Shown here: positions 1-25,932 of the stretch, piece by piece
Layout of the letters: each line of letters opens with the position of its first letter
How positions within the stretch are numbered: position 1 is the stretch's first letter
Assembly (NCBI GenBank): GCA_035764505.1
Contig: DASTZC010000021.1
Span: 1-40,201, forward strand
From: Candidatus Polarisedimenticolia bacterium
GTDB lineage: Bacteria; Acidobacteriota; Polarisedimenticolia; Gp22-AA2; AA152
Reading direction: 5' to 3'
Length of the DNA stretch: 40,201 bases
Notes under the pieces: generated by a model
Databases searched by the model: none
Told to the model about the DNA's origin: nothing
Seen by the model: the letters and a program-made list of their open reading frames with translations, nothing else
Position numbers and translations under genes: made by a program

Positions 1-977
1 GTGAGCTTCGCGAACAGCGGCGCGTAGAGGTCATAGACCTTGAGGTACGAGGCCTGGGTCTTCGGGGCGACCTCGTCGGTGCCGAACAGGAAGCGGTCGG
101 GGTAACGGTTGATGAGATCGGCAGTCACTTTGAGGGTGTCCTCGGAGGCAACGACGTACTTGGCGGTCTCGTCCCAGGAGATGTCGAAGTGCAGATGGGC
201 GAGATCGGGGTTGCCCAGAGCACGCTCCAGGATGCCGATCTGGTCCTTCACCGGATGGACGATCCGTCCTACTCCCATGTGGGCCCAGATGATCTGGGTC
301 TTGGGATGGCGCTTGATGAGGTCGCGCAATTGCACGACCAGGTAGGGATCCTGCCCCGGCTTCGGAAAGGGCATGTCGACGTCGTTGTGGAGGATCACCA
401 CGAGACCCGCCTCGCCGGCGAAGTCCAGGATGCGATCCAGGGCGGGGTTCAGCAGGCTGGCGGTTTCGCCCGCGATCTTCGAAGAGACGAACTCCTTGTG
501 GATGGTGAACTCGCCGATGCCCGAGAAGACCCCGGGGAAGGTGAGGAGTACGCGCTTGATGTGGTCGGCGGCGTACATGTCGGCCGGATTGAAGCCGGTG
601 ATCATCGGATCGAAGCGCGCCTGCTCCGTTTTCGTCAGCGAGCGATAGGACATGGCGATGAACGCGTCGGTGAACGAATAGTAGTAAAGCGGCGCGTCGC
701 TTTGCAGGTAATAGGTCGGCGCAAAGTCGGCGGTGTTGCCGTACGCCCAGGTCTGCTGCAGCGGGATGCCGAACAGTGCCACGCGTCCCACCTTCGTCCC
801 CATGATCTTCAGGAACTCGTGGATGTCGGTGCCTTCCTGCACGTAGTTGGTGAGGTGGAAGTGCGAGTCGTTCACCACGGCCCCCGCGGGGACGCTGGAG
901 CTCTTGCCGCGCGACACGGCGGCCGGCGCGATGCTCACCGCGAGCGCCAGCGTGAGGCACATTATGGCCGGCTTCAT
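1..977 (-). CDS. Secreted amidohydrolase-family metal-dependent hydrolase (3' end outside window)
   Basis: The frame reads 325 residues from ATG at 977 and continues past the left edge, so the C-terminus is missing. The N-terminus (MKPAIMCLTLALAVSIAPAA) is a signal peptide, so the enzyme is exported. A His-x-His pair (H39, H41 in NDSHFHLTNY) opens a TIM-barrel amidohydrolase fold. Further candidate metal or catalytic residues are His in VVILHNDVD, His in IIWAHMGVGR and Asp in LFGTDEV near the window edge. This is the pattern of the amidohydrolase-2 (ACMSD-like) group, which hydrolyses or decarboxylates small acids; the substrate cannot be read from sequence. The ATG is 58 bases after the outer-membrane barrel gene, on the same strand, so it is probably the last gene of the sensor/porin operon. 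No strong ribosome binding site is visible. Confidence 0.85.
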   Translation of the reverse strand, partial: MKPAIMCLTLALAVSIAPAAVSRGKSSSVPAGAVVNDSHFHLTNYVQEGTDIHEFLKIMGTKVGRVALFGIPLQQTWAYGNTADFAPTYYLQSDAPLYYYSFTDAFIAMSYRSLTKTEQARFDPMITGFNPADMYAADHIKRVLLTFPGVFSGIGEFTIHKEFVSSKIAGETASLLNPALDRILDFAGEAGLVVILHNDVDMPFPKPGQDPYLVVQLRDLIKRHPKTQIIWAHMGVGRIVHPVKDQIGILERALGNPDLAHLHFDISWDETAKYVVASEDTLKVTADLINRYPDRFLFGTDEVAPKTQASYLKVYDLYAPLFAKL

Positions 978-1035
978 CGCATGCGTTCGTAGAGGGGGAG
1001 GGGAGAGGGGCCCGGGACCGGCCATGTCACGCTCC

Positions 1036-2673
1036 TCAGAAGTTCATCTCGGCGTTCACGTGATAGACATCGCCGTCGCCGCCCACCGGATAGGGGACGG
1101 CGGTGTAGCCCACCGGGCAGTGGTTCAGGTGGAGCCACTCCGTGTTGATCCGAAAACCCCGCTTCTTGAGCGGATACCAGTTCATCCCGGCGCGGATCTC
1201 AGAGCCGTCGCCATAGACGCCACGGATCTGCGATCCGCTCAGGTAGGCCTGGAGCACGTCGCGCACCACCATGCCGGAGGTCTGCACCTGGTAGCCGTAG
1301 TCGTCGATGTCGGCGATGGCGCCGGTGCCCGGCCCCTCGAAATCGCTCAGATGTCGCCAGTAGTACTCCGCCTCGAGTGAAAGCCCTTTGAACTTGAGGC
1401 CGCCGTCGATGCTGGCCATCTTGTAATGCACCTTGTCGACCTCGATCCCCGCGCCGAACAGATCCGGCGTGAAGATGACGTTCCCATCGGTGAGGCGAAT
1501 CTGGCTGTTCTCGATGCTGTTGGTGCCAGGCTGGCTTTGCTGGTCCTCGGTGCTGCTGGTGTAGTGCAGACCCAGCCGGGTCGCCAGCTTCTCGTGCCAG
1601 TCGTAATCGCCGAAGGTCCCGTACAGGCCGAACTCCCCGGTCGACGGGAGCCATTGCAGGCTGAAGGAGGTGGTGTCGATCGTGTTGTCGAGCTGCGAGG
1701 CGCTGACGCCCAAGGTGCTCAGGTTGTTGGCGAGCATCGCCATGTACTTGAGCTTTGTCGACAGCTCGCCCTTGAGCCAGATGCCGGTGGTGTAGGAGCC
1801 GCGGAAGAACTCGTCGGCGATCAGCCGATCGTCGACCCCGATCCAATACGGAAACTGCCCTTCGGTGCTGCGCACGCTCGGCAGGCTGGTGATGCCGCCG
1901 CCCAGCGTCACGAAGCGGTTGAAGTTCCAGCTGATGTTGCCGGCGCCCCCCACCTGCGCCGGGTCGCCCTGTGAAGGATTCGAGGACCAGACGTAGAGGT
2001 AGTAGCGCAGCTTGGGGCTCAGGAACCAGCCGGAGAAGGGGAGGAAGAACTTGTTCAGCTGGAAGTCCTGGCGCCGATCCACGGTCTTCGTAACGCCGAA
2101 GGAGTCTTCGTAGTGCTTGTCCAGCGATTTCTGGTTCAGGTAGCGGACGTAGGTGAACAGGCGCATGTAGATCTGGCCCTTCTCTCCATCGTAGAGCAGG
2201 AAGCCGGCGTTCGGGATGTACTCGGGTGCTTTCATCCGGGTTGCCGCCGCCTGCTGGAGCTCCGTCGGCACGCCGGCGAAGAACTGCCCGCTGCAGCCGT
2301 CGGAGACCCAGATCCCGGTATCGTCGTACCCCCAGGTCTTGCCGAGAAGGCAGGGAGCCTCTCCCTCCGATTTCACCAGGGAGACTCCCTTCGAAGTGTC
2401 GGCCGGACAATGGTTCCGCTCGCCGGGCTTGGAGGAGCACTTCAGCGTCAGCTTCGCCGCTGCTTCCCGCGCCCTGTCGCCCGGCGTCGAAGGATTCTCC
2501 GGCGGTCCCTGCGCCCGAGCGTCGTGCAGCGCCGGCAGGACGGCGGCGATCAGCGCCACGATCCAGGCGGTCCGCCGGTGGTGGGCGGCGACCCGCCCGC
2601 GAGGTCCGTCATAGCAGAAGATATCGGCTTTTCCATGGGTCAACTCGAGGTCGATTGGGCCTCGACGGCTCAT
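1036..2673 (-). CDS. DUF3011 domain fused to an outer-membrane beta-barrel (porin-like)
   Basis: 545 residues. After a long, basic 30-residue n-region comes a hydrophobic export segment (WIVALIAAVLPALHDARAQ). Residues about 75-125 contain Cys-rich motifs (KCSSKPGERNHCPADT, PCLLGKTWGYDDTGIWVSDGC) that match the DUF3011 pattern, a small domain of unknown role. The rest is rich in alternating aromatic beta-strands (YVRYLNQKS, KLRYYLYVW, LSLEAEYYWRHL) and ends in ...HVNAEMNF; a terminal Phe is the usual outer-membrane assembly signal. The barrel resembles phosphate-selective (OprO/OprP-like) porins, but selectivity is not shown. I chose ATG at 2673 because GGGAGG lies 9 bases upstream inside the end of the receiver gene and the stop and start share one base, suggesting coupled translation. 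The unusually long n-region could instead mean a later, unrecognised start. Confidence 0.8.
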   Translation of the reverse strand: MSRRGPIDLELTHGKADIFCYDGPRGRVAAHHRRTAWIVALIAAVLPALHDARAQGPPENPSTPGDRAREAAAKLTLKCSSKPGERNHCPADTSKGVSLVKSEGEAPCLLGKTWGYDDTGIWVSDGCSGQFFAGVPTELQQAAATRMKAPEYIPNAGFLLYDGEKGQIYMRLFTYVRYLNQKSLDKHYEDSFGVTKTVDRRQDFQLNKFFLPFSGWFLSPKLRYYLYVWSSNPSQGDPAQVGGAGNISWNFNRFVTLGGGITSLPSVRSTEGQFPYWIGVDDRLIADEFFRGSYTTGIWLKGELSTKLKYMAMLANNLSTLGVSASQLDNTIDTTSFSLQWLPSTGEFGLYGTFGDYDWHEKLATRLGLHYTSSTEDQQSQPGTNSIENSQIRLTDGNVIFTPDLFGAGIEVDKVHYKMASIDGGLKFKGLSLEAEYYWRHLSDFEGPGTGAIADIDDYGYQVQTSGMVVRDVLQAYLSGSQIRGVYGDGSEIRAGMNWYPLKKRGFRINTEWLHLNHCPVGYTAVPYPVGGDGDVYHVNAEMNF

Positions 2674-3065
2674 CAAGCACTGCCTCCCATGCGGTGGGGG
2701 GGACCTGCCTGGGCTTCGATCGCCATGCGAATCGCCTCCAGCAGGACTCGCCCTGGATCGGTCTTACGTACATAGGCGCATCCCGTGGAGTTTACCTGGG
2801 CGATCGTCTCGGGCTCGCCATGCGCCGTGAGGAAAACGATTGGAGGGGGGCTGCCCGCGGCCGAGAGCCAACCGTAGAGGTCGAACCCCGACATGCCGCC
2901 GAGCTGGATGTCCAGGACGAGGCAGTCGACCGGTGTCGCCTCGCGGGCCGCGATGTATTCCTCGGCCGAGACGAAAGTTACGGCCTGCATCCCCGAGGCC
3001 CGCAACAGGCGGGCGACGGCGCGGCTATGGCTCGCGTCGTCGTCGACGATCGCGATGGTGAGCAT
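2673..3065 (-). CDS. Stand-alone CheY-like receiver protein
   Basis: 130 residues comprising a single receiver domain with no output domain. The acidic pocket D8-D9-D10, phospho-acceptor D52 (VLDIQLGGMSG), T80 (VFLTAHG) and K101 (VRKTDP) are all present, so phosphorylation should be possible. It starts at ATG 3065 behind GGAG and its stop overlaps the porin start by one base. It lies 71 bases downstream of the FixJ-type regulator, in the same direction. Lone receivers can act as phosphate sinks or as switches on a partner protein. Here the likely phosphodonor is the kinase two genes upstream. Why a receiver should be translationally joined to a porin is not known to me. Confidence 0.88.
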   Translation of the reverse strand: MLTIAIVDDDASHSRAVARLLRASGMQAVTFVSAEEYIAAREATPVDCLVLDIQLGGMSGFDLYGWLSAAGSPPPIVFLTAHGEPETIAQVNSTGCAYVRKTDPGRVLLEAIRMAIEAQAGPPHRMGGSA

Positions 3066-3136
3066 GGGGGTTCTCCGACCACGCGGTACACAGCGACCGC
3101 GCAGCGGGGAAGCTACCAGTCGGAGGAAGGAGGGCG

Positions 3137-3793
3137 CTACTGCCCTTTAGGGAGGGTACGGCCGGCGGTCTGATCCAGCTCGGGAAGGAGCCCGGCTTCC
3201 TGGGCCCAGCGGGTCAGCTCGGCCACCGAGGAGACGCCGAGCTTGGCCGTGATGCTGGTGCGGTGGAGCTTGACGGTGCGCTCGTGGATCGACAGGTCCC
3301 AGGCGATCTCCTTGTTGGCTCGTCCCTGGACCACGTGGGCGAGGACCTCGCGCTCCCGGGCCGTCAGCCGATCGAATGTGGAGCGCGCCGCGCGGAGCTG
3401 GGCCCGCGCCCTCCGCTCGGCCACGTCGCGCGCCATCGCCCGGGTGACGGCGTCGAGGAGCTCGGTTTTCGGGGCCGTCTTGGTGAGGAAATCCTCCGCC
3501 CCCTGCTTGAGGGCGCGCACGGTCGTGGGGACATCGCCCCGGCCGGAGAGGAAGACGACGGGCAGTGGGTTTTCGGAGACGGCAACCGCCTCGTGCAGCT
3601 CCATTCCATCCATGCCGGGCATCTTCAGGTCGGCCAGGATGCAGCCTGACGCCTCCTGCCTCAGCCGCTGGAGGAGATCGCGCGCGGAGCCGAAGGTCTC
3701 GACGGCGTGTCCGCTGCCGCGCAGCAGGCGCGCCACGGCCTTCAGGAAGGAGCGGTCGTCATCCACCACGAAGACGGTTGGGGACGCGCTCAT
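3137..3793 (-). CDS. FixJ/NarL-type response regulator
   Basis: 218 residues. The N-terminal receiver (about 5-120) has D11-D12-D13, phospho-acceptor D55 (LADLKMPGMDG), the Ser of VVFLSGRG and the Lys of FLTKTAP. The C-terminal LuxR-type helix-turn-helix (about 140-200) reads LTAREREVLAHVVQGRANKE followed by IAWDLSIHERTVKLHR and a dimerisation helix. ATG at 3793 was chosen because it forms an ATGA overlap with the end of the histidine kinase gene and because the receiver fold starts at once; a longer reading adds 35 low-complexity residues. With the kinase it makes a FixL/FixJ-like pair that probably controls transcription of this operon and perhaps of other targets. Confidence 0.93.
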   Translation of the reverse strand: MSASPTVFVVDDDRSFLKAVARLLRGSGHAVETFGSARDLLQRLRQEASGCILADLKMPGMDGMELHEAVAVSENPLPVVFLSGRGDVPTTVRALKQGAEDFLTKTAPKTELLDAVTRAMARDVAERRARAQLRAARSTFDRLTAREREVLAHVVQGRANKEIAWDLSIHERTVKLHRTSITAKLGVSSVAELTRWAQEAGLLPELDQTAGRTLPKGQ

Positions 3794-5622
3794 GCACTGA
3801 CCCTCGCCATCGGCAGCGTCACGCGGAAAGTGGTGCCGCCGCCGGGATCGTTGGCCGCCTCGATCTCCCCTCCGTGGGCCTCGACGATCTGCCGGCAAAT
3901 CGCCAGCCCCATCCCCATGCCTCCCGGCTTCGTCGTATAGAAATTCTCGAAGACGCGCGGCAGGTCCTCGGATGGGATCCCCGGTCCCGAGTCGCTGACC
4001 GACATTTGGACCCGGTTGCCGCCGTTGGCGCCGATCTTCAGGCGCAGCCGGCGACCTTCGGATCCATTGCGCTCCATCGCCTCCATCCCGTTAATCAGCA
4101 GATTGAGGAGGACCTGCTGCAGCTGCACGCTGTTTCCGTGGATGTCCGGAAGGCCGGGGGCCACCTCGGCCGATACCTCGATACGCCGGGACTGAGCATC
4201 GGGCCGGATCAGGATCATCATCCGCTCCGCCATGCCCGCCAGCTCGATGCTCGAGAATTCCACCGGATGGCGGCGCAGGAGGCCGCGGATCCCATCGATC
4301 ACGCCGCCGGCACGCTGATCGTCCTCCCGGATGTCGGCCAGGATGGCGCGCACCTCCTGTAAATTGGGCGGTGTGGCGTCCAGGAAGATCTCGGCTGCTT
4401 CGGCGTTGCGCAGAATCGCTCCCAGCGGCTGGTTCAGCTCGTGCGCCAGGGACGAGGACAGCTGCCCCAGAGCGGAGACCCGGCCGGCGTGCGCCAGCTC
4501 ATGGCGCAGCCGCGCCGCCTCCTCCTCCGCCTGCAGCCGGCGGCGGCGCGAGATCAGCAGCCCGCTGATGGCGATCGCCTGGGCCGCGATCAGGAGCCCC
4601 GTGCCCAGGATCACCCAGCGGTACTTGCGCAGCAGCGAGGTTGGATGGAAGAGCACCGTGCTGCGGGACGGCAGAGAGGCCTCGTCGATCCCCCAGCGCC
4701 GCAGCTGCCGCCAGTCGTAGGAGGGGCGATCGGCCGCCAGCACCGGGGAGCGGACCTGCCCGGCCGGCTCCCCGGCGAGGACCCGCAGCGCGGCGCGCGC
4801 CGTCGCCCGTCCGACTTCCTTCAGCGGCAGCAGGGGACCTCCGACGATTCCGTGTCCCAGGAGGTTGTCCGACCAGCCGAACAACGGAGCGTTGGCAGCA
4901 TCCCGCAGCGCTTCCACGGCGGCTTCCTGCTCGTGGGGAACCCCGGCGGCGTCCTGCACCAGCAGGGCGAAGAAAATGGCCGAGTCGGACGGCAGCTGTG
5001 CCGCTCGCCGGACCATCTCGTCGAAGGGGACCTCGTTCCAGTAGACGAGGTTCACTTTCTTTTCGAACGGTCCCCATTCGCGACGGAGGTGTGCCAGCCA
5101 GTAACGCTCCAGCGGGCTGTCGCCGATGACGACGTAGACGTTGTGGGTCCCGGGTCGGACGGCGAGCAGGTTCTCGAGGACACCGGGCAGGTCAAGGCGC
5201 AGGGCCACAACAGCATCCTGCTCCGGCGGCTTTCCGTCGAAGTGGCGTTCCTCGACGGCGGCGATCAGAGCAGGGGTGTCCGGCAGGAGCTCGGCACGGT
5301 GACGCTCCCAGAACCGGTAGGCCGGCGAGCCGATTGCCACGACAAGGTCGATCGGACGCCTGGCGCACAGGGCGCCTACGTAATCGACTACAGGGGCCTC
5401 GTCGGCCGTGTCGAAGCGCATCGTTTCCAGCGAGATGTCGAGGAGCTCGACGGGCTTCGGGGAGAGGCGGGCGAGATCCTCACGGAACTTGGAGGTGACG
5501 GAGTTGTAAGGGGTGAAGTCGCGGCCGAATGAATTGAGAATCAGGATCCGGCGAGGTCCTTCGGACGCCCCAAGGAGCGGGACGCTGAAGATGATGAGAA
5601 GAAGGGGCGCGAAGCGTCTCAT
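3790..5622 (-). CDS. Membrane sensor histidine kinase with periplasmic-binding-like sensor
   Basis: 610 residues. Order: signal or first membrane segment (RRFAPLLLIIFSVPLLGAS), a periplasmic region (about 22-330) resembling the ABC_sub_bind ligand-binding fold (RRILILNSFGRDFTPYNS, LVVAIGSPAYRFW), a second membrane helix (335-358), then the kinase core. The phospho-acceptor is H394 in LAHELNQPLGAIL, followed by the N-box (NLLINGMEAM, N511), DSGPGIP (544-550), and GMGMGLAIC (568-576). The NQPLGA H-box is typical of FixL/DctB-type kinases. ATG at 5622 immediately precedes the export signal and has AGGAA upstream; an upstream extension of 36 residues is in frame but looks non-coding. The periplasmic domain probably binds a small solute, which would fit a porin and a secreted hydrolase in the same operon. 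Confidence 0.92.
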   Translation of the reverse strand: MRRFAPLLLIIFSVPLLGASEGPRRILILNSFGRDFTPYNSVTSKFREDLARLSPKPVELLDISLETMRFDTADEAPVVDYVGALCARRPIDLVVAIGSPAYRFWERHRAELLPDTPALIAAVEERHFDGKPPEQDAVVALRLDLPGVLENLLAVRPGTHNVYVVIGDSPLERYWLAHLRREWGPFEKKVNLVYWNEVPFDEMVRRAAQLPSDSAIFFALLVQDAAGVPHEQEAAVEALRDAANAPLFGWSDNLLGHGIVGGPLLPLKEVGRATARAALRVLAGEPAGQVRSPVLAADRPSYDWRQLRRWGIDEASLPSRSTVLFHPTSLLRKYRWVILGTGLLIAAQAIAISGLLISRRRRLQAEEEAARLRHELAHAGRVSALGQLSSSLAHELNQPLGAILRNAEAAEIFLDATPPNLQEVRAILADIREDDQRAGGVIDGIRGLLRRHPVEFSSIELAGMAERMMILIRPDAQSRRIEVSAEVAPGLPDIHGNSVQLQQVLLNLLINGMEAMERNGSEGRRLRLKIGANGGNRVQMSVSDSGPGIPSEDLPRVFENFYTTKPGGMGMGLAICRQIVEAHGGEIEAANDPGGGTTFRVTLPMARVSA

Positions 5623-5811
5623 TTCCGGAGTTCCTGGCCCGGTCGCGCCCATGTGCAACTGATTCGCCTGCGAGTGAGACGGACGGGCGAGCCGCGAGGT
5701 TTCGCCGGGACGCCGAAGCTTTCGCGGCATGGGCTCGAGACCGGATGGGAGTCTGGTGCCGAGGCTCGGATTCTATTGCAGCACAAGCACATTTGCCATC
5801 TGGACAGCAGT

Positions 5812-5832
5812 CCGGGCGCTCTTTCCGCCCGG
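5812..5832 (-). terminator. GC-rich hairpin just after the 5840-7087 gene
   Basis: A perfect 7-bp stem (CCGGGCG/CGCCCGG, 7-base loop) starts 7 bases after the stop of the upstream minus-strand gene. It has no U-tract, so it may be a weak, pausing or rho-assisted terminator. The remaining bases up to the kinase start at 5622 show no gene. Confidence 0.3.
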
Positions 5833-5839
5833 AAAGGCG

Positions 5840-7087
5840 TCATCGGGATTCGAGGGGCACCACGCAACCGGACTGGAGCAGGTAGTCGTACAGCAGGCCG
5901 AGCGGCTCCGGCAGGTCCAGCGATTTCGCAGAGGCGACCAACTGGCCGGCGGCGTAGAGCCTCACGTTCGCCGCGAGGATCTTCCCAAGCCCTTCCAGGA
6001 GACCACCTTCCAGACGCTCCCGGGCGACGCCGACGAAGATCGCCTTGAGGACCGCGTCGGTCAGGATGAAGCGGATCGGCTCCTGCGTGAAGCGTCTCAG
6101 GTAATCGGTGAGAGGAAAGGGCTCGCCGAAGCGGGTGAGGAGAACCGGCCCTTCCTGCCGCCTGGCCACGGTCCAGGAGACAGCGTCGTCGATCGTCGGA
6201 GGGGCGCCGTCCCGAGCGTCGGCAGCGCGAGTCGACTGAAGCGACAGCTCGCGCAGGAGGAGAGGCTCGGGTTCGGCGGCGCCGCCACGCTCCTCGACCA
6301 GCTGGGCCCGGGCAGTGGCGAGACGCTCCGCTTCTCCTTGCACCGGCTGGCGCGCCCACGATCGCTCCATGACGATGGGTCGCTTGCGCAGGATCTCGGA
6401 GGGAGGCAGGAGGCGATTCTCGGGGCCGACCAGCACCGCCTGGGCGAAACCGCCCTTCACCAGGCCGGTGCCGAGAATCGCCGGCCCGGGATCCTTTACT
6501 CCCGGGCCGCGCGCCTCGAGAACGTCGATCTCGATCCGGTCCAGCGACAATCCCGCGAGCAGCTCGGCCGTCCGCTTCTCCGCCGTTCCCTCGACCTGGA
6601 AGGCGGCGTACAGCAGGTTGACTCCTAGGAGTCCCAGCGCCTGCTGCTGCAGCAAGTTGGTCGAATCGCGCAGGTTGACGTGCATCACCAGGTCGTTGGG
6701 CTCGCCGCCGGGAGCGAGCTGGAAGCGCAGTCCCATCCAGCCGTGGCATTCGTTGGTTCCCGAGAAGTTCCGCGCCGACACCGTGTCGGCGAAGACGAAG
6801 AAGCGGGTCTCGGCGCCGCGCGACGCCTTCAGCCGGTCGAGCAGCAGCGTGTATTCGTGGTCGAGCATCGCCAGCAGCCGGTCGCGCGAAACGTAGCGGC
6901 CCGACTTGCCGTAGATGGCGTCGCTGAAAGCCATGTCGTAGGCGGAGATGGTCTTGGCGACGGTCCCGGAAGCGCCGCCGGCCTGCAGGAACCAGCGGGC
7001 CACCTCCTGGCCGGCGCCGATCTCGGCAAAGGTCCCGTAGGTGGTCTTGTCCAGATTGATGGCGAGCGTCCGCTCGTGGGTGTCCAT
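5840..7087 (-). CDS. Conserved protein of unknown function, 415 aa
   Basis: 415 residues with no signal peptide or membrane helix, so probably cytoplasmic. The N-terminus (ERTLAINLDKTTYGTFAEIG then AGQEVARWFLQAGGASGTVA) and the segment FVFADTVSARNFSGTNECHGWMG are characteristic of a widespread conserved family that I have seen carrying unrelated automatic labels such as TonB-dependent receptor or nicotinate-nucleotide adenylyltransferase. Neither label fits: there is no barrel or plug, and I see no HxGH nucleotidyltransferase motif. I therefore give no function. ATG at 7087 has GGGAG 6 bases upstream and a good promoter (7145-7174) in front, so it is probably monocistronic, lying between the Ser/Thr kinase and the two-component operon. 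Confidence 0.85.
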   Translation of the reverse strand: MDTHERTLAINLDKTTYGTFAEIGAGQEVARWFLQAGGASGTVAKTISAYDMAFSDAIYGKSGRYVSRDRLLAMLDHEYTLLLDRLKASRGAETRFFVFADTVSARNFSGTNECHGWMGLRFQLAPGGEPNDLVMHVNLRDSTNLLQQQALGLLGVNLLYAAFQVEGTAEKRTAELLAGLSLDRIEIDVLEARGPGVKDPGPAILGTGLVKGGFAQAVLVGPENRLLPPSEILRKRPIVMERSWARQPVQGEAERLATARAQLVEERGGAAEPEPLLLRELSLQSTRAADARDGAPPTIDDAVSWTVARRQEGPVLLTRFGEPFPLTDYLRRFTQEPIRFILTDAVLKAIFVGVARERLEGGLLEGLGKILAANVRLYAAGQLVASAKSLDLPEPLGLLYDYLLQSGCVVPLESR

Positions 7088-7144
7088 GCCATCTCCCGCC
7101 GCGACCGGGTCGGGCGCTACTTCTGGCCTAGTGGTTTTCCGGGC

Positions 7145-7174
7145 ATCTTAGGCCCGAGGGAGAGGAAGCGTCAA
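7145..7174 (-). promoter_or_regulatory. Sigma-70-like promoter of the 415-aa gene
   Basis: On the minus strand TTGACG (7169-7174) is followed after 18 bases by TAAGAT (7145-7150). Transcription would start about 50 bases before the ATG at 7087. The element is nearly the same as the one at 9876-9905 (shared CGCGTTGAC and GGCCTAAGAT). Confidence 0.6.
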
Positions 7175-7212
7175 CGCGCGGTCCCCGGGGCCGCGCACCG
7201 CAGGGGGTCGCG

Positions 7213-9855
7213 CTAGTTCTTCCGCAGCCGCCCCATCCAGTTCACCATCACCGCGGCGTCCTGGCTCCCCGGAACAGGAGAGCCCACGAGAAAGCGCTCC
7301 CCATCCCGACTGACCTCGTAACCCGGTCCTTCGGCCGAACCCTGTCCTACCAGAAAAAGCGCCAACGGCGCCGCAGGGGTCAGCTCTTTGCCCGGGGTGA
7401 CCGATACGGCCATCAGGTGGCCGTCCGCGCTCAGATAGAAAAGTTCCTTGCCATCGCGTCGCCAGCGCGGCGTCGAACCGCCCGACGTGGAGATACGGAG
7501 CCTCTCGCCGGGGTGCTGAAACGGCTGGGCATAAACTTCCGGTCGGCCCGTCTCATCCGAGGTGTAAGCAATCCAGCCGCCGTCGGGGGAGAAGCTGGCA
7601 TCCGTCTCGGATTGGGGCGTCCGTATGAGGGGAGTGGCACGCGGAGGGTCAGTGCCGAGAGGCAGGAGCCAGACATCCCAGCCGGTGGTCGGGTTCCGAT
7701 CCTCGAACAAGAGATACCGCCCATCGGAGGATATGCCGGTAGGACACTGCATGGTCCCGGTGGAAGGGAGCAACACCTCGTCCTCGCCCCCGGCGAGGGT
7801 CCGCGCGTGCAGGAAAGGAGGCGCATGGATGGCCTTGCAATAGACGATCTTCTTGCCGTCCGGAGACCACATGGGAGCATAGGAATCCAGTCCATCGGAA
7901 TCGACCCGGGTCGGAACCCCCCGATTGACATCGATCGTCCAGAGGTCTCTGACGCCACGCTGGTTCACGATGCCTGCCACAAGGCGGTTTCCGTCGGGCG
8001 AGAGGCGGATGCTGTCGTAGCTTGCGGGCGATCCCACCTGGCCGATTTCCGCACCCCGGCGGTCCCTCCAAATCAGGTCGGCTTCTCCTCCCGCCATCTG
8101 ATAGGCGAGCACACCATTCTCCGAAACGGAGAACTTGGGCGCGCCGATTCCCGCCCACTGCTCCATGCGCTCCGCGACCGGGGAAGGCGTTCCGCTCAGG
8201 CGAAGCGTTTCGAAGTCGAAATGCTGCGCGAACAGGGTCGATCCCTGGACGAAAAGGAGGTAGCCGGGAGGCGCGGGCAGGGCGTAGGAAGCCGCTTCGA
8301 GGAGCACGCTGGCCTGGAGGCTCTCCAGGGAGACCAGGCAGGTGGCGCGACTGTCATCCAAACCTGGCTTGAGCAGGCAAGGTCCGATGAAATGGCGGGA
8401 GTCAGGCAGGAAACCCGGCCAGCCCACCTGGATCTTGTTCCCCGAGCCGTCCCGGATGTCGAGACGCTCAACCTTGCCGCCGGAAGATGACACGCGAAAC
8501 AGCCCCTCTTCGTGGTCGGGTGCCTCGTCGACGCGCAGGAGAATGGTGCCGTCCCGTCCCCACGCGCCCAGCTGGAAGGGACCGGCGCCGGGTGCGTCGC
8601 AGACATCCGTGACGGACCCGTCGTTCACGTCGATCTTCTTGAGCTTGCCACCCGCGAAGAAAGCGATGAAGCGGCTGTCGGGGGACCAGAAATGCGCCCG
8701 CGCTCCTTCCGTGCCTTCAAGCGGCCTGGCGGAAAGCGCGTCGAGCGGCCGGATCCAGAGCCGGGTCTGATCGCCGTTTTTCGCGGTCTGAGAGATCGTG
8801 GTGCCGTCGGGTGAGACGCGGGTGAACAGGCTCACGGCGTGATCGGGCAGCGCAATGGAGAAGTGGGCGGGGCGCGAAAGGACTTCGGGCTGCCGGGCCA
8901 GCGCCAGCATCGCGAAGCCCAGGCCGACACATAGGGCCAGGATCGCGGCGACCCAGATGATCCTCTCGCCCCGCCTCGGCGTTGCGGCCGCGGCTCCTGG
9001 GGAATCGGTTTTCCGGGAGGCGATTCCCTTCATCTCGAACATCACGTCACGCGCCGATTGCCAGCGCTCCTCGGGGTCCTTGGCGAGGCAGCGCCCCACG
9101 GCGCGCTCCAGCGCGGGGGGCGTCATCGGTTGGAGCTCGGAAATGCGCGCTGGCTCGGCGGTCAGGATGGCGGAGATCAGGCCGGCCTGGCTCGCCCCCG
9201 AAAAAGCGGGCCGGCCGGTGAGCATCTCGTAGACGATCGCTCCAAACGAGAAGATGTCGCTTCGGGCATCGGCTTCTTTGCCTTCGAGCTGCTCGGGCGC
9301 CATGTAATCGAGCGTGCCCAGGATGGCCCCGGCGGCGGTAAGCGGCTCGCTCCGTGTTGGTGCACTGGAATGCCCGCCCTGAATCAGGCTCGCCGGCTCC
9401 TTTGCCAGACCGAAGTCGAGGAGCTTCGCGGCATTCTTGGTGATCATTACGTTGCCGGGCTTGAGATCGCGATGGACGATCCCGCGGCGGTGCGCAGCGT
9501 CGAGTGCCGCGGCAACCTCGGCGGCGATGCGCAGCGCCTGATCGGGGGGCACGGCGCCGCGCCGGAGGCGGGACGCCAGTGTCTCGCCTTCCAGGTATTC
9601 CATCACCAGGAAGTCGATGCCGTTCTCTCGTCCGACGTCATAGAGAGCGCAGATGTTGGGATGGGAAAAGCTTGCCAGGGCCCGGGCTTCCCGCTCGAAG
9701 CGCTGGCGCACCTCGAGGCTGTCCGAGAAGTGGGCGGGAAGCACCTTCACGGCGACGTCACGGCCGAGCCGAGTGTCGGAGGCGCGATACACCTCCCCCA
9801 TGCCCCCCGCCCCGATCCGCTCGAGGATTCGATAGTGGCCCAGCCGTTCCAGCAT
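7213..9855 (-). CDS. Transmembrane Ser/Thr protein kinase with TolB/PD40-like propeller
   Basis: 880 residues. The N-terminal kinase domain (about 8-275) is complete: glycine loop IGAGGMGEV (14-22), K37, E56, catalytic HRDLKPGN (D130), DFG (D147), and activation-segment GTLDYMAPEQL. A single membrane helix (299-320, IIWVAAILALCVGLGFAMLA) separates it from an approximately 550-residue extracytoplasmic region made of repeated beta-propeller blades, e.g. FSPDGGWIAYTSDETGRPEV, LSPDGNRLVAG and MWSPDGKKIVY. This architecture is common in Acidobacteriota and relatives, where the propeller is presumed to sense a ligand or cell-wall component while the kinase acts inside; the targets are unknown. The ATG at 9855 is preceded by its own promoter (9876-9905). 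Translation ends at 7213 with no linked gene. Confidence 0.94.
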   Translation of the reverse strand: MLERLGHYRILERIGAGGMGEVYRASDTRLGRDVAVKVLPAHFSDSLEVRQRFEREARALASFSHPNICALYDVGRENGIDFLVMEYLEGETLASRLRRGAVPPDQALRIAAEVAAALDAAHRRGIVHRDLKPGNVMITKNAAKLLDFGLAKEPASLIQGGHSSAPTRSEPLTAAGAILGTLDYMAPEQLEGKEADARSDIFSFGAIVYEMLTGRPAFSGASQAGLISAILTAEPARISELQPMTPPALERAVGRCLAKDPEERWQSARDVMFEMKGIASRKTDSPGAAAATPRRGERIIWVAAILALCVGLGFAMLALARQPEVLSRPAHFSIALPDHAVSLFTRVSPDGTTISQTAKNGDQTRLWIRPLDALSARPLEGTEGARAHFWSPDSRFIAFFAGGKLKKIDVNDGSVTDVCDAPGAGPFQLGAWGRDGTILLRVDEAPDHEEGLFRVSSSGGKVERLDIRDGSGNKIQVGWPGFLPDSRHFIGPCLLKPGLDDSRATCLVSLESLQASVLLEAASYALPAPPGYLLFVQGSTLFAQHFDFETLRLSGTPSPVAERMEQWAGIGAPKFSVSENGVLAYQMAGGEADLIWRDRRGAEIGQVGSPASYDSIRLSPDGNRLVAGIVNQRGVRDLWTIDVNRGVPTRVDSDGLDSYAPMWSPDGKKIVYCKAIHAPPFLHARTLAGGEDEVLLPSTGTMQCPTGISSDGRYLLFEDRNPTTGWDVWLLPLGTDPPRATPLIRTPQSETDASFSPDGGWIAYTSDETGRPEVYAQPFQHPGERLRISTSGGSTPRWRRDGKELFYLSADGHLMAVSVTPGKELTPAAPLALFLVGQGSAEGPGYEVSRDGERFLVGSPVPGSQDAAVMVNWMGRLRKN

Positions 9856-9875
9856 GGGTTGACCTCGGAGCAGGA

Positions 9876-9905
9876 ATCTTAGGCCTCCCGAGGAGGGAAG
9901 GTCAA
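9876..9905 (-). promoter_or_regulatory. Sigma-70-like promoter of the Ser/Thr kinase gene
   Basis: On the minus strand TTGACC (9900-9905) is followed after 18 bases by TAAGAT (9876-9881). The -35 lies in GTTGACCT, which is mirrored exactly by AGGTCAAC at the ribosome binding site (plus-strand positions 9858-9865 and 9899-9906). The 8-bp inverted repeat could be an operator or an RNA stem if transcription starts further upstream. Confidence 0.55.
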
Positions 9906-9998
9906 CGCGTCGAGGGAGCGCTCCGGCGCCGCTGACACACCGTCGTCACCGTGGATGGAAGATGCGGCGCTTGTTCAGGCCGGCCAGCCCCCAGGGGG

Positions 9999-10043
9999 TT
10001 GACAGCGTGAATCGAATGGCATAATATTTCGATTGTTCTCGAA
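9999..10043 (+). promoter_or_regulatory. Promoter and probable ArsR operator of the arsenic operon
   Basis: TTGACA (9999-10004), a 17-base spacer and TAATAT (10022-10027) form a near-consensus promoter. TTCGA (10028-10032), six bases, TCGAA (10039-10043) is an inverted repeat over the expected start of transcription, and a further half-site AATCGAAT (10010-10017) lies in the spacer. Placement over the promoter fits repression by the ArsR-family protein encoded immediately downstream and release on metalloid binding. A GGAGG ribosome site (10049-10053) precedes the ATG at 10058. Confidence 0.7.
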
Positions 10044-10057
10044 TAGTCGGAGGATTA

Positions 10058-10423
10058 ATGAAAGCACCCGAAGCCGTAACCGCCCTCGCCGCCCTGGCCC
10101 ACCAGTACCGCCTTGCCGTGTACCGCATGCTGGTTGAGGCCGGACCCGAGGGCTTACCGGCGGGCGGGATCGCGAGCCGACTGAAATTGCCGCCATCCTC
10201 GCTCACGTTTCACTTGCAGGCTCTGCAGCGCGCGGGACTCATCACCCGCCAGCGCATGAGCCGGCAGATTATCTATGCCGCCGATTTCGGGACGATGAAG
10301 GCCCTGGTCGGCTATCTCACCGAGAACTGCTGTGCGCAGAGCACGTCCGCCGGATGCGGTGCCAAACGCGTCCCGGCAGCGGAGCGTCCGGCAGCCTCTC
10401 GCAAGATCCGGAGGAGCGCATGA
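10058..10423 (+). CDS. arsR: ArsR-family arsenic-responsive repressor
   Basis: 121 residues. A winged helix-turn-helix (about 5-85: LAHQYRLAVYRMLVEAG, LPPSSLTFHLQALQRAGLI, wing SRQIIYAAD) is typical of ArsR/SmtB dimeric repressors. The usual CxCxxC in the recognition helix is absent. Instead cysteines C91, C92 and C100 sit just after the last helix (TENCCAQSTSAGC). This resembles the C-terminal three-Cys As(III)/MAs(III) sites known from the Acidithiobacillus ferrooxidans type of ArsR. The stop overlaps the arsI start as ATGA. It probably represses its own operon through the dyad at 10028-10043. The last 20 residues are basic and look disordered. Confidence 0.92.
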   Translation: MKAPEAVTALAALAHQYRLAVYRMLVEAGPEGLPAGGIASRLKLPPSSLTFHLQALQRAGLITRQRMSRQIIYAADFGTMKALVGYLTENCCAQSTSAGCGAKRVPAAERPAASRKIRRSA

Positions 10424-10890
10424 AACGTCTGCACGTCCATGTCAGCGTGAGCGACATCAAAGAATCGATTCGTTTCTATAGCGCGTTGTTCGCTGCCGAG
10501 CCGGTCGTTGTGAAAAACGACTACGCGAAGTGGATGCTCGAGGATCCGCGCGTGAACTTTGCAATCAGCAAGCGAGGTGCCGAGCCGGGTATCCGGCATC
10601 TTGGCATCCAAGTGGAAAGTCGGCCGGAGCTGGCCGAGGTCTACGCCCGGCTGCGCCATGCCAAGGGGCCGATTCGCGAAGAAGGAGCCACGACCTGCTG
10701 TTACGCAGAGAGCGACAAGAGCTGGGTCGCCGACCCGCAGGGCATTGAATGGGAGACGTTCCTGACGACGGGCGAGAGTACGGTCTATGGCGACGAAATC
10801 AGCGGTGCAGGTTCAAGCAGGTGTTGTGAGCCACAGTGCTGCGAGCCGCCTCCGGGCCCGGCAGCACCGGCGGCACCGTGTTGCACATGA
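10420..10890 (+). CDS. arsI: ArsI/CadI-type organoarsenical C-As lyase
   Basis: 156 residues of the vicinal-oxygen-chelate (glyoxalase) fold. The family uses Fe(II) and oxygen to cleave the carbon-arsenic bond of trivalent methyl or aromatic arsenicals, releasing As(III). The expected Fe ligands are visible: H5 (LHVHVSV), H60 (GIRHLGIQV) and E110 (GIEWETF). The Cys pair that binds MAs(III) is C93-C94 in TTCCYAESDKSWVADPQG, a signature of the family. ATG at 10420 follows GGAGG by 4 bases and overlaps the arsR stop. The C-terminus carries an additional Cys-rich tail (CC at about 133, CC at about 138 and CC near the end), which could bind metalloid. CadI-type cadmium proteins are close homologues, but the Cys pair and operon favour arsenic. 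Confidence 0.92.
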   Translation: MKRLHVHVSVSDIKESIRFYSALFAAEPVVVKNDYAKWMLEDPRVNFAISKRGAEPGIRHLGIQVESRPELAEVYARLRHAKGPIREEGATTCCYAESDKSWVADPQGIEWETFLTTGESTVYGDEISGAGSSRCCEPQCCEPPPGPAAPAAPCCT

Positions 10891-10967
10891 CGACGCGGAT
10901 TGACCGTGTGGCCACGACCGAGGACATGAAACGCCTTGGCCTGAGTCCCACCGAACCCAGCCGATGA
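10887..10967 (+). CDS. 26-codon micro-ORF joined to arsI and arsC by ATGA overlaps
   Basis: A 26-residue frame (MTTRIDRVATTEDMK... ending LGLSPTEPSR) exactly fills the space between arsI and arsC. Its ATG overlaps the arsI stop (ATGA, 10887-10890) and its stop overlaps the arsC ATG (ATGA, 10964-10967). Such double overlap is what translationally coupled genes show, and without it ribosomes would have to re-initiate 74 bases downstream to reach arsC. It has no membrane segment and no cysteine. It may be a coupling peptide, a real small protein, or the fused ends of a gene lost between arsI and arsC. I do not recognise the sequence. Confidence 0.5.
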   Translation: MTTRIDRVATTEDMKRLGLSPTEPSR

Positions 10968-18600: not shown

Positions 18601-21156
18601 ATGAGGCGGAATCTCGCGGCGAGCATCCCTCCGGCCGTCGGCGTCGCGCTGTTCGGGGCTTCGCTCTGGGTCCTGTACCACGAGATCGAGCGGTACCACT
18701 ATCGCGAGATCGCGCAGGAATTCGCCGCCATTCCCTACGCGCGCCTCCTGCCGGCCGTCCTGGGCACCATCCTCGGATATCTCCTGCTGACCGGCTACGA
18801 TGCTTTGGCCCTGCGCCACATCGGGAAAAAAGTCCCTTATCGCCGGATCTCGCTCGCCTCCTTCATCGCTTACGCCCTGAGCAACAACGTCGGCTTCGCC
18901 ATGCTCTCGGGTGCCGCGGTGCGCTACCGCCTCTATTCGGCGTGGGGGCTGACGGGGATGGAGATCGTCAGCGTCATCGCCTTCTGCAGCTTCACCTTCT
19001 GGGTCGGGTTCCTGGCGCTGGGGGGAACCGTCTTCCTGATTGAGCCGCTGGTGATCCCCGCCGGCGCGCGGCTGCCGTTCCATTCCCTCCGCCCGCTCGG
19101 CGCGGCGCTCCTGCTGCTCCTGGCCGCCTATCTCGCCTTCTGCGCCCTGCGCCGGCAGCCGGTGCGTGTCGGAAGATCCGAGCTCGCGGTGCCGACGCCC
19201 CGGATGGGCCTCCTGCAGGTCGTAATCTCCTCGCTCGACTGGGCGGTGGCGGGGATGGTCCTCTACGTGCTGCTGCCCGACGGCGCTCGCGTCTCCTTCC
19301 CGCAGACCCTGGGCGTCTTCCTGCTGGCCCAGGTCTCCGGGCTCGTAAGCCAGGTGCCGGGCGGGCTGGGGGTCTTCGAGACGGTCGTCCTGCTGATGCT
19401 GGCGGGGACCGCTCCGGCGCCGGCAATTCTGGGAGCGCTGCTGGCCTACCGGGTGATTTATTACCTGATGCCGCTGGGTGGCGCGGCGGCGTTTCTCGCG
19501 GCGCACGAGCTCGGCAGGCAGAAGGAAAGCTTGCGCAAGGTGGCGCGCCGCACCGGCCGCTGGAGCGCGGCACTCGCTCCCAGCATCCTGGCCTTTACGA
19601 CCTTCCTGAGCGGCGCCATCCTGCTCCTTTCGGGGGCGGCCCCCGCGGTCCCCGGACGTCTCGACTGGCTGAAGGACGTTCTGCCGCTTCCGGTGATCGA
19701 GCTGTCGCACTTCCTCGGGAGCCTCGTCGGAATCTGTCTGGTCCTCCTGGCGCGCGGCATCCAGCAGCGCCTCGAGGCGGCCTACCATCTCACCGCCGCC
19801 TTCCTCACGGCGGGGATCGTCCTTTCGCTGCTGAAGGGGGCCGATTACGAGGAGGCGATCTTCCTGACGCTCATGCTGGCCGCCCTGCTCCCGTCGCACC
19901 GCCACTTCTACCGCCGGTCGTCGCTCATCGGCGAGCGCTTCACCCTGTCATGGACGGCGGCGGTCGTCGTCGCGCTGCTCGGCTCGATCTGGCTCGGCAT
20001 CTTCTCGCACAAGCATGTCGAGTACTCGAGCGATCTCTGGTGGCGCTTCACGGTGCGGGGCGATGCCCCCCGGTTCCTGCGCGCCACGGTCGGCGCCGGG
20101 GTGGCGGCCCTCGCCTTCGCAGTGGCCCGCCTCCTGCGCCCGGCACGTCCTGAGCCTCCCGCGCCCAATCCGGAGGACCTGGAGCGGGCGCGCTCTGTCG
20201 CCTCCGCTTCCCAGGACACCTATGCTTACCTGGCCCTGCTGGGCGACAAGCGCTTCCTGTTCAACGAGCCGGGCAATGCATTCATCATGTACCGGGTGCG
20301 AGGTCGCAGCTGGGTCGCGCTGGGCGATCCCGTCGGCCCCGAGGGGGAACGCGGCGACCTTGCATGGCGCTTCCGGGAGATTTCCGATCGGCATGCCGGC
20401 TGGGCCATCTTCTACGAGGTCGGGCGGCGCAGCCTCGATCTGTATGTCGACCTGGGGCTGACGCTGATGAAGATCGGAGAAGAGGCGCGCGTGCCGCTCG
20501 GCAAGTTCTCTCTCGAAGGGGGCAGCCGCAAGGGGCTGCGGGCCGTGGTGAACCGGGTGGAGAAGGAAGGGTGCAGCCTCGAGGTGGTCGGTGCCGAGGC
20601 CGTGCCGGCGCTGCTGCCCGAGATGCGCGCCATTTCGGAGGCCTGGCTGGCCGAAAAAAAGGTCCAGGAGAAGTCGTTCTCGCTGGGACGCTTCGACGAG
20701 ACCTACTTGAAGCAGTTCCCCGCGGCCATCGTCCGCCGCGGCAGCGAGCTCCTGGGGTTCGCCAACCTCTGGCCGGGGGCCGGCAAGGAGGAGCTCTCCA
20801 TCGATCTGATGCGCTACCATCCGAACGCTCCGGAAGGAGTCATGGAGTTCCTGCTGGTGCGCCTGATGCTCTGGGGGCGCGAGCAGGAGTATCGCTGGTT
20901 CAATCTGGGGATGGCCCCGCTGTCGGGGCTGGAGGGGCGGTCGCTGGCCCCGCGCTGGTCGCGCCTGGGCGCTTTTGTGTTCCGGCACGGCGAGCACTTC
21001 TATAATTTCCAGGGCCTGCGCCAGTACAAGCAGAAATTCCACCCCGTCTGGGAGCCGAAATACCTGGCCGCCCCCGGCGGCATCGCGCTACCCCGCATGA
21101 TCGGCCACCTGACCGCGCTGATCTCGGACGGCAGCCGGAGGACTCCCAAGTCATGA
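18601..21156 (+). CDS. mprF: Phosphatidylglycerol lysyltransferase/flippase MprF (LpiA)
   Basis: 851 residues. The N-terminal part (about 1-510) is a polytopic flippase domain with many helices (IPYARLLPAVLGTILGYLLL, NNVGFAMLSGAAVRYRLYS, GLVSQVPGGLGVFETVVLLM). The last two motifs (GAxVRYRLY and SQVPGGLGVFE) are typical of MprF. The C-terminal cytosolic DUF2156 domain (about 530-851) transfers an amino acid, usually Lys or Ala, from charged tRNA to phosphatidylglycerol (YLALLGDKRFLFN, VALGDPVGP, MRYHPNAPEGVMEFL, WFNLGMAPLSG). Both domains are intact and the length matches the family. The product lowers the negative charge of the membrane and gives resistance to cationic peptides and acid. The stop overlaps acvB as ATGA, a pairing known for lpiA-acvB in Agrobacterium and Rhizobium. 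Confidence 0.95.
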   Translation: MRRNLAASIPPAVGVALFGASLWVLYHEIERYHYREIAQEFAAIPYARLLPAVLGTILGYLLLTGYDALALRHIGKKVPYRRISLASFIAYALSNNVGFAMLSGAAVRYRLYSAWGLTGMEIVSVIAFCSFTFWVGFLALGGTVFLIEPLVIPAGARLPFHSLRPLGAALLLLLAAYLAFCALRRQPVRVGRSELAVPTPRMGLLQVVISSLDWAVAGMVLYVLLPDGARVSFPQTLGVFLLAQVSGLVSQVPGGLGVFETVVLLMLAGTAPAPAILGALLAYRVIYYLMPLGGAAAFLAAHELGRQKESLRKVARRTGRWSAALAPSILAFTTFLSGAILLLSGAAPAVPGRLDWLKDVLPLPVIELSHFLGSLVGICLVLLARGIQQRLEAAYHLTAAFLTAGIVLSLLKGADYEEAIFLTLMLAALLPSHRHFYRRSSLIGERFTLSWTAAVVVALLGSIWLGIFSHKHVEYSSDLWWRFTVRGDAPRFLRATVGAGVAALAFAVARLLRPARPEPPAPNPEDLERARSVASASQDTYAYLALLGDKRFLFNEPGNAFIMYRVRGRSWVALGDPVGPEGERGDLAWRFREISDRHAGWAIFYEVGRRSLDLYVDLGLTLMKIGEEARVPLGKFSLEGGSRKGLRAVVNRVEKEGCSLEVVGAEAVPALLPEMRAISEAWLAEKKVQEKSFSLGRFDETYLKQFPAAIVRRGSELLGFANLWPGAGKEELSIDLMRYHPNAPEGVMEFLLVRLMLWGREQEYRWFNLGMAPLSGLEGRSLAPRWSRLGAFVFRHGEHFYNFQGLRQYKQKFHPVWEPKYLAAPGGIALPRMIGHLTALISDGSRRTPKS

Positions 21157-22601
21157 AGCGTCTCGTTCTACCCTTGCTCCTCATGCTCCTGGCCGCACCG
21201 GCGGCCGCCAAAGCCTCCAAGCCCGCTGCTTCGCCTCCGGCGCGGACGGAAAGCTTCGGGCGCTTCGGCAGCGTGGCGCTGTACGGCGATGCCCAGCAGG
21301 CCTCGCAGGTGGTCCTCTTCTTTTCGGGCGACGGCGGCTGGAACCAGGGGGTCGTGGAGATGGCGAAGCGGCTGGGCTCCATCGATGCGCTGGTGGTGGG
21401 CATCGACGTCCCCCGGTATTTCGATTCGCTGAAGAAGTCTTCCGAGGAGTGCGCCTACCCGGCCGGCGACCTCGAATCGCTCAGCCAGTACATCCAGAAG
21501 AAGCTGGAGCGGCCGCATTACACGCCGCCGATCCTGGTGGGCTATTCCTCGGGGGCGACCCTCGCCTACGCGACGCTGGCGCAGGCCCCCGCGGGGACCT
21601 TCAAGGGAGCGATCAGCCTGGGCTTCTGCCCCGATCTCGAAGCGACGAAGAAGTTCTGCAAGGGGAGCGGGCTGTCCAGCGGGCCGTTGCCGCAAGGCAA
21701 GGGGATTCTCTTGGAGCCGGCGCCGAATCTGGAAGCTCTCTGGATCGCGTTCCAGGGGGAGATCGACAAGACGTGCGATGCGGCGCAGACGGAACGCTTC
21801 GTCAAGCAGGTTCCCGGCGCCGAGATCGTGCTGCTTCCCAAGGTGGGGCATGGCTTCTCGGTGTCGAAGAACTGGCTTCCGCAGCTCGAGGATGCCTACC
21901 GCCGCATGGTCCGCAAGACCTCACCACCCCCGGAGCCGGGCGAGGAGCAGCCGGCTATTGGCGCGATGATCCCCGGCGATCTCAAGGATCTCCCCCTGGT
22001 CGAGGTGCCCGCCGTGAAGCAGCCTTCAGGCACCTTGGCGGTTCTGGTCTCAGGGGACGGCGGTTGGGTGGGCCTGGATCGCAATGTTTCGAAGGTCCTC
22101 GCCGAGCGTGGCATTCCGGTGATCGGGCTGAACTCGCTGGCCTACTTCTGGAAGCGCCGCACGCCGGAGGAGGCGGGAAAGGACCTGGAGAGGATCATGC
22201 GGCACTACCTGGCGCAGTGGCATTGCGATAAGGCCTTGTTGCTGGGGTATTCGCGCGGCGCCGATGTCGTGCCCTTCATGGCCAGCCGCCTTCCCGATGA
22301 CCTCCGCGCCCAGGTGCGCCTGGTCGTCCTCATGGGACCCGATGACTCGGTCGATTTTGAGTTCCATCTCAGCGACTGGCTCGGAAGCGACCATCACGAC
22401 AACAACCTGCCGGTCCTGCCCGAGATCCGCAAGCTGGATGATTTCAGTGTCGTCTGCTTCTATGGGGAGCACGAAGACGACAGCCTTTGCCCCGCGCTGA
22501 AGGACGGTCCCATGCGCGTGGTCCGGTTGTCGGGCGGGCATCACTTCAGCGGAGATTACGAAGGAGTGGCCGAGCGGATCCTTCAGGAGGCGGAGCGGTA
22601 G
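21153..22601 (+). CDS. acvB: AcvB/VirJ-family exported lipid hydrolase
   Basis: 482 residues with a signal peptide (LVLPLLLMLLAAPAAAKA), so periplasmic. Two tandem alpha/beta-hydrolase-like halves each start with SGDGGW (58-63; 300-305). Each half has a nucleophile elbow, GYSSG (S132) and GYSRG (S367). The C-terminal half ends with a catalytic-type His in SGGHHFSGDY. Two halves is the AcvB form; VirJ has one. AcvB of Agrobacterium hydrolyses lysyl-phosphatidylglycerol made by LpiA (established knowledge), and the 4-base overlap with mprF strongly supports the same role here: periplasmic control of the level of aminoacylated lipid. Whether both halves are active cannot be told. Confidence 0.9.
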   Translation: MKRLVLPLLLMLLAAPAAAKASKPAASPPARTESFGRFGSVALYGDAQQASQVVLFFSGDGGWNQGVVEMAKRLGSIDALVVGIDVPRYFDSLKKSSEECAYPAGDLESLSQYIQKKLERPHYTPPILVGYSSGATLAYATLAQAPAGTFKGAISLGFCPDLEATKKFCKGSGLSSGPLPQGKGILLEPAPNLEALWIAFQGEIDKTCDAAQTERFVKQVPGAEIVLLPKVGHGFSVSKNWLPQLEDAYRRMVRKTSPPPEPGEEQPAIGAMIPGDLKDLPLVEVPAVKQPSGTLAVLVSGDGGWVGLDRNVSKVLAERGIPVIGLNSLAYFWKRRTPEEAGKDLERIMRHYLAQWHCDKALLLGYSRGADVVPFMASRLPDDLRAQVRLVVLMGPDDSVDFEFHLSDWLGSDHHDNNLPVLPEIRKLDDFSVVCFYGEHEDDSLCPALKDGPMRVVRLSGGHHFSGDYEGVAERILQEAER

Positions 22602-23315: not shown

Positions 23316-23317
23316 GC

Positions 23318-25621: not shown

Positions 25622-25932
25622 TCGGGCTCCAGGCTCGCGCGCAACGGATGGCCGGCGGAGCGCGCCAGCTCATGGACCGTGGAAACCTTGGTCTCCGCCA
25701 CCTCGTGCGGGTAGGTCCCGGCGATGCCCGACCCGCGCACATGGACCGACATCATGATCTGGTGGGCCTCCGCCGGCGATTTGGCAAAAAGTCCTTCGAG
25801 GAGAGTGACGACGAAGTCCATCGGAGTGTAATCGTCGTTGTGCAGGATGACGCGGAACAGCGGCGGTCTTTCGGTCTTCTGGCGGGTCTTCTCCAGGACC
25901 TGCCCGCCCCGCTGCCCCTCTCTCTCACCCAT
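25618..25932 (-). CDS. clpS: ClpS, N-degron adaptor of ClpA
   Basis: 104 residues. The flexible N-terminus is followed by the folded domain with the signature FRVILHNDDYTPMDFVV; Asn and Asp here line the pocket for the alpha-amino group of the substrate, and Met in TPMDF gates residue size. Then come LLEGLFAKSPAEAHQIMMSVH and GTYPHEVAETKV, the latter containing the conserved His of the binding pocket and the ClpA-binding face. It delivers proteins starting with Leu, Phe, Trp or Tyr to ClpA. It is the first gene of clpS-clpA-aat; ATG 25932 has GGGAG upstream. Confidence 0.96.
   Translation of the reverse strand: MGEREGQRGGQVLEKTRQKTERPPLFRVILHNDDYTPMDFVVTLLEGLFAKSPAEAHQIMMSVHVRGSGIAGTYPHEVAETKVSTVHELARSAGHPLRASLEPE

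Follow-up and report, generated by a model that had tools for sequence, protein, structure and literature searches.

Gene content of the operon

The window, meaning the whole stretch of 40,201 nucleotides that was analysed, is a complete contig (G000:C21) of a 4.46 Mb assembly in 288 contigs. ORF calls and the window sequence place five open reading frames, all on the minus strand, in one operon:

3790..5622, minus strand: sensor histidine kinase, with HisKA and HATPase_c domains (Pfam/NCBIfam) and a predicted periplasmic ABC_sub_bind-like sensor (residues ∼22-348) followed by a transmembrane segment
3137..3793, minus strand: FixJ/LuxR-type response regulator (Response_reg and GerE)
2673..3065, minus strand: lone receiver of 130 residues (Response_reg alone), with acidic pocket, phospho-acceptor Asp, Thr and Lys all canonical
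1036..2673, minus strand: predicted outer-membrane porin (the barrel), modelled with an OprP/OprO-like fold and carrying an N-terminal, lectin-type DUF3011 domain
1..977, minus strand: Amidohydro_2-family metalloenzyme (Pfam), apparently exported, its 3′ part lying off the contig end

An ORF check bore out the five same-strand genes and the joins reported in the preliminary description: kinase and regulator overlap by four bases (ATGA), 71 bases separate the regulator from the lone receiver, the receiver stop and the barrel ATG share one base (TGATG), and 58 bases lie between barrel and amidohydrolase. Since the contig ends within the amidohydrolase gene, that protein is missing its C-terminal residues, and whatever lies further downstream falls outside the window. 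Upstream of the kinase, a 415-residue protein (5840-7087, minus strand) gave no Pfam match at E 0.1. Elsewhere in the window, N-end-rule degradation genes form a single set (22614-25932, minus strand), in which leucyl/phenylalanyl-tRNA-protein transferase, a ClpA-type ATPase and ClpS are grouped and the genes for the latter two overlap. On the plus strand (18601-22601), a lysyl-phosphatidylglycerol synthase gene overlaps one of the VirJ/AcvB family; together they suggest synthesis and removal of a lysyl-lipid.

The kinase sensor had been assigned to the ABC_sub_bind type (PF04392), which a Pfam search of the window kinase itself did not reach; the assignment is backed instead by a kinase homologue (L073) that matches ABC_sub_bind at E 4.7e-6, above the PF04392 cut-off, and by a sensor profile whose only matches in the PDB were 3lkv and 3lft, both ABC-substrate-binding-type proteins (E ∼0.001). 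The protein thus appears to belong, partly by way of the L073 homologue, among two-component systems with a solute-binding-protein-like sensor. The 3lft structure was solved with tryptophan (PMC9382623). Tentatively, we take the ligand most likely to be an amino acid or a close relative, a type that fits the partner enzymes of the barrel cluster described below. Because the sensor profile was built from four barrel-linked sensors, their own scores are circular, and the per-genome counts less so: 17 sensors were counted over 16 genomes, with seven in G329, two in G026 and one in the window genome, where the sole sensor of its kind found is the one on this operon.

The DUF3011 match of the barrel (residues 78-138) scored 47.5 bits against a Pfam cut-off of 25 bits. 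OprP and OprO, which are 16-strand trimeric porins with a phosphate-selective arginine ladder, were the best fold matches (E 1.2e-11, TM-score 0.44-0.57) to an AlphaFold model of moderate quality (mean pLDDT 61), and DcaP was also among the matches. A search of PDB sequences gave no usable relative and no sequence match to OprP/OprO or DcaP. On the strength of its model, the barrel is a candidate outer-membrane porin with an OprP/OprO-like fold. A DcaP relationship was also considered and rejected (no PF19577 match in Pfam; hhalign probability 0.1%). A barrel start at the ATG overlapping the receiver stop is possible and would place a hydrophilic extension of ∼32 residues, of weaker codon composition (third-position GC of 0.71 as against 0.89 in the remainder of the gene), ahead of the signal-like stretch. 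In G026, a genome of another family in the same class, the called barrel start lies 8 bases past the receiver, so the spacing is tight in two genomes, whatever the exact start. DUF3011 has one functionally characterised representative, the galacturonate-binding lectin AKL of Aplysia kurodai (PMC5484111). In G103, G353 and G318, a coiled-coil-like stretch takes the place of DUF3011 in the barrel, a substitution that points to a role as a periplasmic stalk or in glycan contact.

The amidohydrolase matched Amidohydro_2 at 45.8 bits (cut-off 26.4; E 8.7e-12), and its structural model (pLDDT 76) matched dihydroorotase, ACMSD and a COG3618 enzyme. Because HxH, E156, H197, H233 and D301 are invariant in an alignment of 17 sequences, the metal site appears to fit that of ACMSD. 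Amide hydrolysis does not follow from the family name; the clade has no sequence match in the PDB, and the reaction may thus be decarboxylation or lactone hydrolysis. Export was called from the N-terminus, judged by eye. The enzyme is present in 28 of 396 sampled Acidobacteriota genomes, and plasmids yielded no close relative (best 30%). At four loci of one genus with a conserved neighbourhood (L074-L077), a same-family amidohydrolase adjoins an Amt ammonium transporter.

The kinase-regulator-receiver triad in other genomes

A histidine kinase, a LuxR-type response regulator and a lone receiver occur as three adjacent genes, in the same order, in unrelated genomes. Such loci without a barrel are L106, L114 and L118-L124; at L106 (7729-12221) a sulfatase comes next, and at L114 (region 809-10944) a sulfatase lies nearby and a carbon-nitrogen hydrolase downstream. 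The barrel-free triads on Sinorhizobium, Ensifer and Rhizobium plasmids mostly adjoin arylsulfatase genes; the placement beside sulfatase genes is common to Acidobacteriota and rhizobia and apparently undescribed. Microvirga has all three genes, with the regulators on the opposite strand, and a second Microvirga kinase stands by itself. Across genomes, the kinase/regulator join measures −4 to +9 bases and the regulator/receiver join 26 to 168; L107, L109 and L110 were excluded because a simple gene finder gave no gene calls. The three genes thus form a portable triad conserved across phyla, and since the triad occurs barrel-free with similar distances, the receiver belongs to the kinase's signalling module rather than to the barrel. 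Because the same order and similar joins recur in other genomes, the five-gene arrangement does not appear to be due to chance. The best NCBIfam model for the window regulator is FixJ, at 176.7 bits; this lies below the 255-bit FixJ cut-off, and the protein is therefore not a FixJ equivalog.

Linkage of the sensor to the barrel, as had been proposed, recurs elsewhere. The sensor lies directly upstream of the barrel in the window and at one G026 copy (39% identity between the two sensors), and in G329 one sensor is convergent to a barrel (copy 2) and another lies ∼5.5 kb from another barrel. The comparison of sensors did not support a single clade of barrel-linked sensors, and the ligand may therefore differ between loci. 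In G026 the kinase has a HisKA_3-type core, and the lone receiver (L034, 952-563) has Glu at the phospho-acceptor Asp position and a partly lost acidic pocket, so that it may act without phosphorylation; the two barrel-adjacent receivers, of the window and G026, are unrelated (18% identity). The G026 module was thus reassembled from other components, with a similar sensor at its centre.

The barrel-amidohydrolase cluster in relatives

Of 396 genomes sampled from the phylum, 10 carry a homologue of the entire barrel, counting the window genome, with 46-78% identity to the window protein by alignment. The closest named relative carrying one is a Vicinamibacteria metagenome bin (L030), the only further locus from a scan of genome contigs, which places the window genome in the Acidobacteriota. 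Barrel and amidohydrolase are adjacent or in the same cluster at 11 of 13 loci, the amidohydrolases being ∼60-80% identical, and the amidohydrolase is thus the barrel's steady partner; the exceptions are G154, whose barrel lies elsewhere in the genome, and G333, in which no barrel was found. The G154 barrel, apart from the amidohydrolase (L104, 7218-9868, minus strand), is followed instead by a Putative cyclase (PF04199) family gene. An isolated 119-residue ORF in the window genome (L035 10484-10843; G000:C137 30483-30839), near a sigma-54-type regulator gene, resembles the barrel (29% identity) over the barrel's C-terminal part alone and may be the decayed remnant of a second one.

Within the closer clade, 10 of 11 informative neighbourhoods contain a glutaminase gene (PF04960) and 9 a gene for a DcaP porin (PF19577). 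Individual loci also contain asparaginase together with an aspartate-alanine exchanger (L067), an aspartase-type lyase (L031, L069), serine dehydratase (L070), or an exchanger and a malic-enzyme-like gene recognised by eye (L071). Most cluster enzymes have signal-like N-termini, again judged by eye. Among ten genomes searched for glutaminase, five have it, and all six copies (one each in G006, G024, G026 and G154, two in G329) lie inside the cluster; the same search found none in the cluster-free relatives G001, G003 and G004, nor in G273 or the window's own assembly. A search for DcaP elsewhere in the window genome gave only a 35% match, and in this genome both genes could lie in an assembly gap or be absent. 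The chemistry shared by the cluster partners is ammonia release from amino acids. Gene order, family membership, conservation and linkage are here direct observations, and they describe a recurring and apparently undescribed barrel-amidohydrolase gene cluster, rich in putatively exported ammonia-releasing enzymes. The literature searched, with most subscription journals outside its scope, yielded no paper on the kinase sensor, none describing the triad, and no description of the triad-effector combination and wider cluster; the families are already known, and the combination and wider cluster are apparently new to that literature.

Interpretation and comparison with known systems

We give about an even chance to the reading that the operon serves inducible scavenging in the periplasm, with the triad controlling a porin and an exported metalloenzyme. 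We infer phosphotransfer, autoregulation, ligand, export and enzyme reaction as follows. The extracytoplasmic ABC_sub_bind-like domain of the kinase would bind a small solute, for which an amino acid or a related compound is the likeliest candidate, and the kinase would phosphorylate the FixJ-type regulator, switching the operon on; the lone receiver would compete for kinase phosphate or bind the kinase, tuning or ending the response. The OprP-like porin, with its periplasmic lectin-type domain, would admit the solute across the outer membrane, and the exported, metal-dependent TIM-barrel (ACMSD-like) enzyme would convert it in the periplasm. The effectors of relatives extend to a DcaP porin and to signal-bearing glutaminase, asparaginase, aspartase or serine dehydratase, which would release ammonia and organic acids from amino acids outside the cytoplasm.

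This scavenging reading is supported by the operon architecture, the linkage of barrel to amidohydrolase, the glutaminase and DcaP cluster partners, and the confinement of all six glutaminase copies to the cluster with none in three cluster-free relatives. It also draws on the Amt transporter adjoining the amidohydrolase in a distant family, on the position of the genome's only such sensor, together with the sensors by the G026 and G329 barrel clusters, on the match of the sensor profile to 3lft and the conservation of the triad across phyla, and on the OprP/OprO porin fold and invariant metal-ligand residues. Against it, the barrel-linked sensors are not one clade and most barrel clusters lack a linked kinase; glutaminase was not detected in the window genome, where the DcaP match reached only 35%; and the amidohydrolase clade has no PDB sequence match, its export being called by eye. 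The preliminary description had the operon sense a solute, make an outer-membrane route for it and export a hydrolase to process it, with receiver and barrel as a unit; the operon does combine a solute-binding-type sensor with a predicted pore and a hydrolase that is apparently exported, and the sense-import-process idea is plausible, but the receiver-barrel unit is not supported. A wider proposal, which we put forward tentatively and as the less probable, is that barrel and amidohydrolase are part of an undescribed extracytoplasmic nitrogen-release pathway of Acidobacteriota, comprising two porins, a new amidohydrolase activity and exported glutaminase, asparaginase, aspartase and serine dehydratase, and placed here under an amino-acid-sensing triad with a tuning receiver.

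The arrangement might instead be a chance neighbourhood, in which a mobile triad inserted ahead of a porin-amidohydrolase pair expressed constitutively, the tight join reflects compaction, and the triad regulates something else. Such an origin would account for triads beside other genes, barrel clusters without a triad, linked sensors of more than one clade and the unrelatedness of the two barrel-adjacent receivers; however, we think it rather unlikely given the one-base receiver-barrel overlap in the window and the 8-base spacing in G026, the position of the window genome's only such sensor, and the renewed linkage to the same cluster in G329. Glycan use, in which the DUF3011 lectin domain and porin would take up uronic-acid oligosaccharides and the amidohydrolase would act on a sugar lactone (COG3618-like), is suggested by the galacturonic acid binding of AKL, by the COG3618 enzyme among the structural matches and by the sulfatases that adjoin sister triads. 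It seems improbable to us nonetheless, as the enzymes that accompany the cluster act on amino acids and not on glycans, and because a coiled coil replaces DUF3011 in some homologous barrels, a structural or peptidoglycan-facing role is the likelier one for the domain. Finally, the idea that receiver and barrel are a dedicated pair, the former acting through protein contact on the latter or on its assembly, is largely refuted by the comparative data and can have only the slimmest chance: a receiver does lie directly upstream of the barrel in the window and at L034, but these are 2 of about 12 barrel loci and their receivers are unrelated, that of L034 being of another lineage and without a phospho-acceptor; barrel homologues stand without linked two-component genes at L030, L032, L067, L070, L071 and L104, the very outcome that the preliminary description had named as refuting; triad receivers occupy the same place at the barrel-free loci; and the receiver is cytoplasmic whereas the barrel is in the outer membrane.

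If the scavenging reading is true, it would assign a function to the DUF3011 porin and to this amidohydrolase clade, both orphan families, point to a release of amino-acid nitrogen outside the cytoplasm in Acidobacteriota, and bring to light a sensory triad, common to Acidobacteriota and rhizobia, that is open to genetics in Sinorhizobium meliloti.

Among known systems, the triads of rhizobial plasmids (e.g., Sinorhizobium meliloti pSymA, CP140882.1) have the same gene order as the window and comparable joins (−4 to +9 bases, followed by 26 to 168), with sensors ∼26-28% identical to the window sensor; their targets are arylsulfatases and others, whereas those in the window would be a porin and an amidohydrolase. 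The window regulator best matches FixJ and the kinase core is near FixL/AtoS, but FixL/FixJ-type systems use a haem PAS sensor, in contrast to the solute-binding-protein-like sensor and extra lone receiver here. Single-domain response regulators with a phosphate sink or hub role have been described in alphaproteobacteria (LovK-LovR, MrrA; PMC5964349), and there too a lone receiver works with a kinase, as the window triad would have it; unlike these, the window receiver accompanies a FixJ-type regulator and an outer-membrane operon. OprP/OprO porins give the best fold matches to the barrel model and DcaP a further one, and DcaP genes neighbour the barrel in relatives, the N-terminal DUF3011 domain setting the window barrel apart from both. 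That domain is shared with AKL, which consists of three DUF3011 repeats, in contrast to the single copy fused to a predicted porin here. Lastly, Amidohydro_2 enzymes (ACMSD, COG3618 lactonases) share the TIM-barrel fold and the HxH, His, His and Asp ligands with the window enzyme, which differs from them in forming its own clade, in its apparent signal peptide and in having relatives clustered with glutaminase and porins.
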